DNA of 64,000 nt from positions 1,924,501-1,988,500 of the forward strand of contig NC_089456.1 of assembly GCF_026210795.1 (NCBI RefSeq), in the 5' to 3' direction. The notes beneath the pieces are model-generated. The model worked only from the letters and a program-made list of their open reading frames with translations. It searched no databases and was not told the origin of the DNA. Both the position numbers and the translations under genes were made by a program. This DNA comes from Rhizophagus irregularis (lineage: Eukaryota; Glomeromycota; Glomeromycetes; Glomerales; Glomeraceae). This document shows, piece by piece, positions 10,121 through 44,740 of this stretch. Positions within the stretch are counted from its first letter, which is position 1, and each line of letters opens with the position of its first letter.

Positions 10121-10490
10121 AAAAAAATTAGGATTGGGATCAGCCTATCGGATTGACGCTGCAATGCTACAGTAAAACATGATTTATTTTATTTATCATT
10201 TCTTTTTACTAACTTTATTTTCATTTAGGCTTAAATTGAATTGATAATCGGATCAAAGTTGCAGTGTTACTGTAAGGGTTGATGTCTTGATAATCTGCGG
10301 TGTACGGTAAGTGCCGATTTTATTTTATATTTTTTTTACAAGGTTTAGATTAGGATCGATGGTTATATTGAAGCTGCAATGTTATGATATTTTTCTGATT
10401 TGATTCCTTGCTTTTTATTTCTAATTTATTCACCTTTAGGATTAGATCAGATTAGATTGATGCAGTTAATACTGTATAAACCCTGTTGAA
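10121..10490 (+). repeat. Array of mini-exon/intron-like repeats (array A)
   Basis: Four related segments of about 40-45 bp follow AG acceptors near 10131, 10229, 10345 and 10440. Their shared core is GATYRGATYGRATTGA..CTGCAATGYTA. Between them lie intron-like spacers: a donor such as CTACA|GTAAAA, a perfect TACTAAC branch site at 10207 and a pyrimidine tract ending CATTTAG. Period about 100-115 bp. No open frame links the segments. Same design as arrays near 14.8, 20.8, 21.7, 36.5 and 44.1 kb. Confidence 0.5.
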
Positions 10491-11298
10491 AAATATTTTT
10501 TTTTAAAAAAACTCATTTTCGGCCGGATGGTTTGATGGATATCAAAAACCACCAACTTTCTGGCTAAAACCTGTTCAGCCGAAGCCTTTTTTTTTATTAT
10601 TATTTTTCTTTTAATTAAAGTTAACGGTTATATTAAATTTTATTAAACATTAATTATTTTTTGTAAAAAAAAAAATAAAGTTTTCATTTTGACCAAAACC
10701 TTTTAACTTTTTAAAGAAATTTCTTTTTTTTTATTGTTTCTATAAGCATATTTTGAATACAACACATTTGTATTTATTATATATACTATATATATATAAT
10801 GTATATATGATATATCGTAAAGAAAATGTACCATTTGGAAAATCTTTCCCAAAAATCGATGATATACTAAGAAGTTTGAAGTTGAATCCTAACTAAGTTC
10901 CACTGTGTAACGATGTATGAGAGTGCACACTGCGTACCATGTGTAAAATACAAATTCTCGAAAATTATTATTTGTAAAATTGAAAATCTCATCCAAGATT
11001 AGATTCCATGCAACGCTATAAACAAGATGAAACTTTCGTATAATATTTTGCAGGTAAATTTACCGTCCGAAGCGTTCGACTAAATATAAATTCTGTTACG
11101 CCGCTTCTTATTGACCACGTAATAAAATTTATTTAGATCGTTAGTGATTTACCGGTGTAATGTCAGAATTACTTAGTGAATTTACTAATTGTGGGCGCAG
11201 TACTATATTTAGTTTAAGTGGGACGTTACAAGTGTAACATGTAAAACTATTCTTCTGTTCACATTTATTTTTATGGAAATTGGGGTCGTAGGATTACT
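10491..11298. other. Intergenic with small foldback
   Basis: A short inverted repeat (TTTCGGCCGGATGG..CAGCCGAAG) spans about 10514-10585. Nothing else recognised up to the MITE at 11299. Confidence 0.4.
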
Positions 11299-11532
11299 AG
11301 GACCCAGAAATATATATAAAAGGGTCAGGTTTGAGTTTGCATATTTTGTACTAAAAAAATCATGAAAATCTTTCCTTTATTAGATAATTTTTGATAATGC
11401 CGGTCAGAATTTTATTTCTTATTATAGTAACTGGCTAACATTATCATAATTCCGGCCCTGAAAAAATGCTTACAGCTCATAGTAAAAAAATTTTTTCATC
11501 ACCTGACCCCTATATATATATTTCTGGGTCCT
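11299..11532. mobile_element. 234-bp MITE with 8-bp target duplication
   Basis: Ends AGGACCCAGAAATATATATA on both sides in inverted orientation, continuing as an inverted repeat of about 31 bp. Flanked by a perfect 8-bp duplication GGATTACT (11291-11298 and 11533-11540). An 8-bp duplication fits a non-autonomous hAT-type element. The interior contains GCCGGTCAGAATTTTA and a roughly complementary AATTCCGGCC. Confidence 0.85.
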
Positions 11533-11540
11533 GGATTACT

Positions 11541-12218
11541 AAATTAGGAAAGGGTTCGAAGATCAAAAAAGAAAAGTTGATAATTATGAAAAGTGGAAAA
11601 TGATATTTTTGACATTCTGATGATGAGAGGAAAAGGTTTGCTAAGGGTAAAATTTTGAAAAAGTCAAATTGAAAAACATCAAAAAGGGAAAAAGGTAAAA
11701 CACTTAGGAAATATTTTTGGACTTAGGATTTATTTGATGAAAATCATTTTGGCAAAATAAGAAAAAGGGAAATTCAAAACACTTAGGATTTATTTTTACG
11801 AAAATCATTTGATTATAAAAAGGGAAAATATTTTGATTAACAAAAAGTGGATTTTTAGAATTCAATTTTTATAATTTTTAGCATTACATTGTTATTAATT
11901 TATTAAACCAAGCATTACATTATATTTGTGTAATAATAAAACATCATTTTTGTTAATACTGCGGTGGCAATGTAGTTTATTACGGGCGTAGGTCTTACAC
12001 CGGCAGGATTATTTTACCGAGTTAGGTCATTAGGTGGCGACTGTCACATTGATGATGATCGTAAATTTATTATATAATATCATATAAATTAAAATTTAAG
12101 GATTTAGCCGGTGATTTTAAACTCTAGCCAATTATAATTTTGACCAGAATTGGGTGGTAGTGAATAGTGATGATCATCCTTACACCTGATTTTTACAACG
12201 TTAGTAGCGTTACACACA
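11541..12218. other. FB2 distal upstream region
   Basis: 11541-11900 is purine-rich with weakly repeated AAAAAGGGAAAA/ACACTTAGGA words. 12100-12180 contains CCAATTATAATTTTGACCAG, the distal promoter block also present upstream of FB4-FB6. No gene. Confidence 0.5.
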
Positions 12219-43465: not shown

Positions 43466-43542
43466 TGTTAATGAAAATGAAAAGATAAAGTATCAAAATT
43501 TTATTATTATGTCAAACTGGGTAAATTATAGTATATCGATTT

Positions 43543-43558
43543 CGGAGTGATAATTCCG
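43543..43558 (-). promoter_or_regulatory. CGG-N10-CCG dyad upstream of FB6
   Basis: CGG at 43543-43545 and CCG at 43556-43558, ten bases apart, within TTCGGAGTGATAATTCCGA. Same position relative to the CCCAGTTTG block and the start codon as in FB5. Confidence 0.5.
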
Positions 43559-43662
43559 ATATTGTCGCACAATTCATGTGTAATGACACTAACGTTGTAA
43601 GTAAGGATGATCATCACTACCACTTAATTCTGGTCAAAATTATAATTGCCTTAAATCCTTAA

Positions 43663-44740
43663 ATTTGTTACCCGTGGCTTCGCACTGGGACCAATGAGTT
43701 TTTTTAAATAGAAAAATTTAGTATTGTAATGTAATACTAAGTAGATTAAATGGTTACAGTAGTTTTTTGTTTATAATTAGGAATTAATAATTAGTTAAAC
43801 AATAATAAAATAATATGTACTAAATTATATTTATAATATTAGAATGATATCATATTTACAATTTTTCACCTATGGTGATTTAACCTATGTAATTTATCCA
43901 GTGATATCACCTCATTATTAAATTTGTACATGAGCACCCTATTAAATTTTATTGGCTACTAATTATGTTTGATTATTTTTTTTAAACGTACTCGTCCTTT
44001 CACTCTTTTGCACGACACTCAAGGTACGTTTTCTTTCTTTTTTTTTCATTTTTGCTTCTTGTTTCCTACTAGCTTTATTTCATTTTTTTAGGTCCTTTAG
44101 CTCTTTCGATTTTGCAATTAAGATATGATTAGCACTATATGGCCATTCTTCTTATCAGTTATTTTATTATTCCATTCTTAATATTTTGTTTCTTACATTG
44201 TGTATTTCGTTCTTTTTAGGTCTTTTGGTTCTTCTTTGCAACTACTAAGGTATGCTTTTTATTTTTTTGTTTTTGTTTATTTATTACATTTAATTTCCGT
44301 TCCCTATTACTAACTTCTTAACAAAAAACTACAGATTTAATATAAGGCTAATAAAAGTATTGTCATGTGCTAGTAATAATAAATCATGCCTATCATCAAG
44401 CTCGTTAATAGTGCTAGTAAGAAAATTGTGATCGGAATAGTCTAATTTCAGGCTTTTTGTAATAATAATATTGGGCTAGTATATGACATTTATTGTTATT
44501 ACAAATGTGATTATAAAAGACATATGAAGGTATTTTTTAATAACAATATATCTAATTTAATATTACATTTATTCCACTAAAATATTAATAAATATCAATA
44601 CAAACTACGATTACTATACTATTATATTTTACCAACAATTATTATTATATTGCCAAAAATAAAATTACGGACATATTCAAATTTTGAAGTTTTATGATGG
44701 TCTGCGGTGGACACTAGTCTATAGATGTATTATAAATTTA
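43663..44740 (+). repeat. Splice-like repeat array E and AT-rich flank
   Basis: Three homologous segments on the plus strand: TCGTCCTTTCACTCTTTTGC ending CAAG|GTACG (about 43992), AG|GTCCTTTAGCTCTTTCGAT ending TTAAG (about 44090) and AG|GTCTTTTGGTTCTTCTTTG ending TAAG|GTATGC (about 44218). Spacers are intron-like with pyrimidine tracts ending TTTTTAG; the period is about 100-128 bp. The rest of the stretch is AT-rich with nothing recognised. Confidence 0.45.

Follow-up and report, generated by a model that had tools for sequence, protein, structure and literature searches.

The 64,000-base stretch of the Rhizophagus irregularis genome analysed here, referred to as the window, covers positions 1924501-1988500 of contig C28. 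A preliminary description of it had reported dispersed arrays in which short homologous mini-exons alternate with intron-like spacers carrying splice signals. Comparison with related sequences throughout the genome (32 contigs, 146,748,485 bases, to which all genome-wide counts below refer) indicated that these arrays are real, and the description was confirmed in part. Two features were absent from it, namely that the arrays can be the cargo of transposons with terminal inverted repeats (TIRs), and that donor and branch sites lie in covarying palindromes. The explanation that we consider probable, taken as a whole, is that the arrays belong to a superfamily of tandem exon-intron repeats, borne in one family (family III) by CACTA elements, which would act as non-coding cargo that engages the spliceosome. 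The arrays of the window and the continuation of one of them are as follows.

10132-10473, plus strand: array A, four exon-like segments homologous to one another (10132-10171, 10229-10271, 10349-10385, 10440-10473) and separated by intron-like spacers.
14829-15336, plus strand: array B (family I), exon-like segments 14829-14859, 15072-15104, 15134-15171 and 15304-15336.
20812-21061, plus strand: array C, exons 20812-20842, 20907-20938 and 21032-21061.
21480-21930, minus strand: array D, a T-rich tandem repeat with acceptor-like TTTTGTAG motifs.
23335-23885, plus strand: downstream part of the family I repeat, 87.9% to positions 1811-2362 of locus L001.
35768-37041, minus strand: array E (family II), exons 37004-37041, 36791-36822, 36753-36760, 36637-36661, 36530-36563, 36383-36410, 36294-36323, 36162-36206 and 35768-35810.
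37404-37821, plus strand: array E2, four exon-like segments.
44092-44249, plus strand: array F, homologous exons 44092-44122 and 44220-44249.

Ordered chains of donor, TACTAA, pyrimidine tract and YAG were identified ten times in the window, both strands included, and eight of the ten were inside the named arrays, which with slight padding make up 3,975 of the 64,000 bases. The chain rule had been loosened after a stricter first rule gave 0 matches; 100 order-2 Markov shuffles gave a mean of 1.12 and a maximum of 6 chains, and the reversed sequence gave 1. The reported period near 100 bp was borne out, as 11 of the 20 steps between successive curated exons measured 87-128 bp (range 62-396 bp), and so was the common spacer core, recovered as the 19-mer AAACGTTTTACTAACGTTT with 21 exact copies genome-wide (reversed pattern, 0), the twenty-first being inside the window. 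The likeness of exons within an array held for A, C, F and part of E and did not hold for B and E2: the exon pairs above shuffling (z > 3) were 4/6 in A, 1/3 in C, 1/1 in F (z 3.9), 3/28 in E, 0/6 in B and 0/6 in E2. Two placements had to be revised. The segments at 35760-37120 and 37390-37850 had been joined, whereas the former is on the minus strand and the latter is a separate plus-strand piece. Array D had been counted among the splice-signal arrays and was not accepted as one, as by eye it has no TACTAA and hardly any donor; it sits inside a different TIR element, at 21145-22440.

The window copies carry several losses and rearrangements. The third donor of array A is lost (now GATATT), as is the donor of the first exon of array F. 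Array B is homologous to L001 and L014, and its repeat is split, with about 7.7 kb of other sequence between the array and the continuation at 23335. The 12-bp sequence CTTTRCAGAAAC, shared by 14423 and 23883, was a candidate for the family I TIR and was dropped, as no target site duplication (TSD) fits by eye; its left copy is absent from L001 and L014 within the 3 kb examined. Array E matches L003 at 78.5% over 1.15 kb, with additional acceptor-like sites that were left out of the exon set, and segment 37643-37681 of array E2 is similar by eye to a family II exon. Branch hairpins are present in array C (TTAGCAAAATGT[CTACTA]ACGTTTTGCTAA and TAATGAAACAT[TTACT]ATGTTTCATTA) and in array E (AAACGTT[TTACT]AACGTTT and ATCGAAGCATT[TTACT]AATGTTTCGAT).

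A genome search for tandem units bearing the core recovered relatives in families that share the splice order. The 20 core loci outside the window were sorted by eye into families I-IV, to which the splice order is common and the exons are not; the order of the signals, a tight intron length (mostly 77-96 nt) and GT/AG are retained across families despite unlike exons. Based on these sequences, the building block is a mini-exon together with a predicted short U2-type intron (GT donor, branch site, T-tract, AG). Nine loci with a common left boundary make up family III, and one of them, L004, has long matches of 83-97% to the other eight. The family III unit has exons of mostly 35-61 nucleotides (nt; 46% GC), introns of mostly 77-96 nt (22% GC) and donors that are mostly GTAAG. 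The donor core GATTCGTAAGTACGAATC has 254 exact copies genome-wide (control 0). In a further unit type, type V (L060, L064, L066 and part of L062), the donor hairpin is within the intron and starts at the donor (GT, then AAGTTTCGCAACG...CGTTGCGAAACTT), and in the L061 type it is across the exon-intron border, while L055 and L063 have several unit types in succession within one array. The interpretation that exon and intron were amplified together as a tandem unit was supported, and it extends beyond the window to the family III, type V and L061 arrays. Rfam gave 0 gathering-level matches in five loci other than the window (L010, L021, L003, L001 and L015).

Family III is carried in CACTA-like DNA transposons that are non-autonomous and have TIRs and TSDs of 3 bp. 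These elements, of 1.4-4.3 kb, are bounded by CACTAGTCGAAAAAGGA TIRs that start with CACTA, a sequence with 44 exact copies genome-wide (control 0). Ten elements were read at both ends (one each on contigs C13, C10, C20 and C25, two each on C5, C6 and C30), and the 3-bp TSD was exact in nine of them, the tenth having TAA/TGA. Four young family III elements are the following.

C13:728690-732013, young family III element.
C5:1899109-1902431, young family III element.
C6:4403468-4406077, young family III element.
C25:3476544-3477972, young family III element.

Young arrays are also located at C1:325900-327200 and C1:4797900-4799300. The 1.4-kb and 4.3-kb elements differ in unit number, and in L025 the TIRs are 370-390 nt beyond the first and last donors. 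The longest frames were 113 residues in L024, under 100 in L025 and 62 in L030, and L010 had one of 106 residues in its element part. Transposase_21 is common in the genome (at least 155 matches), and the two matches nearest CACTAGTCGAAAAAGGA TIRs are frames that the elements had entered; these two family III copies are antisense within the Transposase_21 frames of other elements. The insertion site of the C13 copy had been labelled by eye as a MULE frame, and this label was replaced: Pfam gave a weak ZSWIM1-3 RNaseH-like match for the upstream piece of the host frame (E 0.00025, below cut-off) and none for the downstream piece. The CACTA-starting TIR, the 3-bp TSD, the lack of any transposase found inside and the insertion into other transposons are all shared with non-autonomous CACTA (CMC/EnSpm) elements (PMC8978399), which are among the nearest known systems. 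The cargo is unlike, in that family III has tandem exon-intron units with hairpin splice sites, and CACTA elements have transposase remnants and short subterminal repeats.

Two further observations were made on these elements. Of the CACTAGTCGAAAAAGGA matches, 30 are in forward and 14 in reverse orientation, and random loss of single ends would not predict this imbalance. In L010 (1641-2164) and similar family III copies there are purine-rich 19-nt and 13-nt tandem repeats (AAGGGGAAGCTAAAAACGA) over about 540 nt, which were not seen in L025 and L030; upstream of them is a pyrimidine-rich stretch that is apparently partly complementary.

In the young array types the donor and branch signals are in palindromes with covarying arms. 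A per-unit census (units at 85-190 nt spacing, in 13 loci picked for holding arrays) identified a branch hairpin in 62/78 units of family III, 25/28 of type V and 7/7 of L061, compared to 14/390, 6/140 and 0/35 in shuffled sequence, and a donor hairpin in 69/78, 22/28 and 6/7, compared to 29/390, 7/140 and 0/35. Perfect branch stems of at least 7 bp, with the branch site defined as ACTAA followed by a T-tract and TAG, were present in 33 of the 52 distinct family III contexts (0.15% when the flanks were shuffled), and donor stems of the same minimum length in 47 of 87 (shuffled, 0.64%). The palindrome GAAACGTT-N2..8-AACGTTTC was found at 926 places genome-wide (control 1) and GAACGGTT-N0..8-AACCGTTC at 801 (control 0), giving 1,727 perfect palindromes for both arm pairs together. 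By eye, CTAA was at the loop in 29 of the first 50 places listed for GAAACGTT/AACGTTTC and in 47 of the first 50 for GAACGGTT/AACCGTTC. Some stems in L062 and L063 close over the entire donor (GTAAG...CTTAC). Housekeeping loci served as background sequence only, as their introns (4 candidates and 9 frame-consistent gaps) are too few and partly doubtful; no context in them passed the branch acceptor rule (n=0), and of two donors that passed neither had a stem of at least 7 bp.

The arms covary at both sites. For type V-like donor arms (21 distinct of 22 hairpins, from L060, L062, L064, L066 and L055; seven loci scanned) matched pairing was 0.810 compared to 0.547±0.042 for permuted arms, a value that none of 2000 permutations reached. 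The branch arms were anchored by a rule blind to pairing, and only distinct pairs passing the acceptor rule were counted; the 79 such pairs gave 0.445 compared to 0.389±0.019 (z=2.9; 9 of 5000 permutations reached it). Branch-arm covariation was null for the nine pairs of the window (0.444 vs 0.424) and for the housekeeping loci, taken without the acceptor rule (0.303 vs 0.286).

Several hairpin arrays depart from this arrangement. In L059, and in L043 as judged from hit strands only, donor palindromes are on the strand opposite to the rest of the array, as if the loop had been inverted. In L065 (1-700) and L063 (200-400) bare hairpins AATCGGAACGTTGGCTAACGTTCCGATT alternate with GAAACGTTTTTTAACGTTTC, separated by T-rich spacers and with no acceptors by eye; these arrays are possibly a precursor or a relic of the exon-intron arrays. 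The frames next to them were considered as an autonomous partner and set aside, since by eye they look like a large element in its own right that entered the array. In L067 (C1:1430550-1436050) a DNA-polymerase-B-like frame, named by eye, is apparently between two halves of a hairpin array, and its sequence suggests that it probably belongs to a Maverick/Polinton-like element.

The arrays of the window look like old, decaying copies of this large superfamily of dispersed repeats. Their branch-region hairpins reached threshold at 7 of 26 curated acceptors, compared to 10.5% of shuffles, and three of the seven were AT-only. The RNA folding z-scores (20 shuffles each) were -1.2 for array E and -0.3 for a housekeeping gene, and -11.6 and -12.5 for the arrays of L030 and L060. 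None of the 44 exact CACTAGTCGAAAAAGGA matches is on contig C28. The window copies would be explained by younger relatives elsewhere that have units of an exon of about 35-61 nt and an intron of about 77-96 nt.

If pairing of the sense RNA were selected, G-U pairs should outnumber A-C mismatches, and this test for RNA-level selection was negative, as their counts were alike (donor hairpins, 19 vs 20; branch hairpins, 1 vs 3; other hairpins, 14 vs 23). According to PMC8794818, perfect hairpins can arise and persist through template switching, with no need for such intermediates. The covariation therefore shows that pairing has been kept and does not show its cause; the equality weighs against selection on the sense RNA and would favour a DNA-level process. 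An explanation at the DNA level would have the palindromes as recognition sites (e.g., subterminal repeats of the CACTA kind, to which a transposase-partner protein binds) or as structures kept by replication template switching, and the introns as fossil or fortuitous and unspliced today. It would also accommodate the seemingly inverted loop in L059 and the bare arrays of L065 that by eye have no acceptors. However, the families share an ordered and spaced splice consensus while their palindrome arms differ, the arrays are not confined to the element ends and occupy most of the interior, and the T-tract and AG would have no role. We regard this explanation as rather unlikely, although it has a real chance of being correct.

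It is highly improbable that each unit is a mobile intron of the introner type that was inserted in genes. The parallels are in inverted repeats: these are found in fungal introner-like elements and in stwintrons (parts of PMC8469720 and PMC12403724), and palindromes surround the splice sites of Amoebophrya introners (parts of PMC7789003). Introners and introner-like elements also have a transposon-linked spread of spliceosomal-type introns, as described in sections of PMC12403724, which cites the studies of Huff 2016 and Gozashti 2022; as described there, each inserts as one intron and has a splice site where the element ends, whereas here exon and intron repeat jointly in tandem inside a larger element. 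The L025 TIRs, well outside the first and last donors, indicate that the mobile unit is not a single intron, and two insertions were read in antisense orientation within Transposase_21 frames that belong to other elements. Symmetrical stwintrons, in the Hypoxylaceae and Xylariaceae, are likewise fungal introns that have inverted repeats close to either end. As described in PMC8469720 and PMC12403724 they are nested pairs with terminal repeats, unlike the separate local hairpins at the donor and branch site of many tandem introns seen here; the units were tandem instead of nested in the arrays that were parsed, nesting not having been searched systematically. The Amoebophrya introners share palindromic hairpin-forming motifs at splice sites, and from what PMC7789003 describes in part their motifs are mostly non-canonical and in host genes, unlike the canonical GT-AG and TACTAA of these apparently non-coding tandem arrays.

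Still less credible, and already disfavoured, is the view that the arrays are decayed multi-exon genes for repeat proteins, such as SP7-like effectors or other secreted repeat proteins of Rhizophagus irregularis. In SP7-like proteins the repeats are imperfect and a conserved intron precedes the first of them (parts of PMC11333574), and in-silico splicing of family III produced long stop-free frames of 195 residues in L030, 193 in L031 and 151 in L023. Stop triplets in family III exons were also below dinucleotide-Markov expectation, at 18.7 per 1000 on the sense strand where 32.8±3.1 were expected. Yet the antisense frames were comparably open (193, 193 and 118 residues in the same loci), with stop triplets at 18.3 per 1000, no more than 30 of the 69 parsed exons had a length divisible by three (a few donors being mis-set), one spliced family III frame tried against Pfam had no match, and the copies move as TIR elements. 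Some donors in the exon parse were wrong (GTATGG, GTATAG and others) and were mostly corrected for the stop-triplet count, in which the parser mis-assigned a few exons (11-16 nt and 96 nt; a last exon of 58-64 instead of 35 nt); the comparison of strands should be independent of such residual errors. The exons of family III have no strand-specific coding signal and are read as non-coding, and coding genes were rejected for this family after the splice-and-stop test. The least credible view, that these are ordinary AT-rich minisatellites that resemble introns by chance, suits array D and the wealth of T-rich tandem repeats. The ten chains where 1.12 were expected weigh against it, and it is contradicted for family III and type V, with their conserved donor, branch and acceptor positions, by hundreds of exact donor and branch palindromes with controls of 0-1 and by the hairpin census.

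For the superfamily of tandem exon-intron units proposed at the outset, the following course can be envisaged. Unequal exchange or slippage of the unit would lengthen the arrays, and they would spread when the element is moved by a CACTA transposase supplied in trans. A transcript crossing an array would engage the spliceosome at many splice sites presented in hairpins, and would be either spliced to a short non-coding RNA or kept unspliced with its hairpins closed. Selection would act on the RNA of the element itself, through its export, its escape from silencing or its toleration by host transcripts, and not on a protein. Stems that close the whole donor should slow U1, so the arrays may be conditional splice substrates, which is the least certain step. 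More tentatively, and with the odds somewhat against it, we propose that such DNA transposons are selfish elements of a new kind. Their cargo would be a spliceosome substrate present in many copies, with donor, branch and perhaps exonic motifs in RNA hairpins, and by capturing the splicing machinery, or evading it, their transcript would protect the element or allow its expression.

Several results weigh against the explanation by a superfamily of tandem exon-intron units. Branch stems of at least 7 bp were only partially present outside family III (I 2/2, II 4/13, IV 2/5, window 0/7), and donor stems of that length were not above shuffles (II 1/23, I 0/6, IV 0/26, window 0/25). The 5' splice site is enclosed in many of the stems, where U1 should have difficulty in reaching it, and the bare hairpins of L065 have no acceptor by eye. 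The window had 0 matches to the family III CACTA terminus at up to 3 mismatches, a search that a more decayed end would escape. No autonomous partner, sought as PF02992 within a CACTAGTCGAAAAAGGA TIR pair, was among the matches listed. The depletion of stop triplets, equal on both strands, is not explained by a non-coding reading, and the absence of a G-U excess belongs here as well.

If the arrays are spliced, they would represent a transposon class that multiplies exon-intron units and not genes, and would connect the spread of transposons with the proliferation of introns and the structure of splice sites. With thousands of such introns, the fungus would then offer a natural library on how RNA structure controls splicing, and hundreds to thousands of natural variants of covarying hairpins would permit a direct test of the effect of structure on splice-site use. 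If they are not spliced, they still show that palindromes with fixed internal signals can stay perfect throughout a transposon superfamily, which would provide a test of the template-switch model. Two-thirds of the transposons in this genome remain unclassified, according to PMC11075540, and the arrays may explain part of these and bear on intron origins. The main text of two surveys of Rhizophagus irregularis transposons (PMC11075540, PMC8647823) makes no mention of introns, splicing or hairpins, and no account of such arrays was found among the open-access papers listed on introners, mini-exons, repeats, CACTA elements and palindromes in Rhizophagus or Glomeromycota.

The window also contains the following features.

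21145-22440, no strand assigned: TIR-bounded element of another family, with ends CCCTATAAAAAAATTGGATACG.../...TATTTCTTATAGGG (also CCCTATAA...TTATAGGG) and CAT on both flanks.
47514-48647: tandem repeat of 185 bp, 6.3 copies, 86% matches.
49918-57792, minus strand: long interspersed nuclear element (LINE)-like pair, a 1891-residue frame with reverse transcriptase and endonuclease domains and an adjacent 730-residue frame with an RRM match.
12319-13887 and 41894-43465: two frames of about 520 residues, 95% identical (497/524).

T-rich tandem repeats are abundant in the window, and those of the element at 21145-22440 are on the minus strand. Frames similar in size to the pair of about 520 residues are present at 33120 and 39059, and a weak F-box-like match, below cut-off, was found in the frames at 12319 and 39059.

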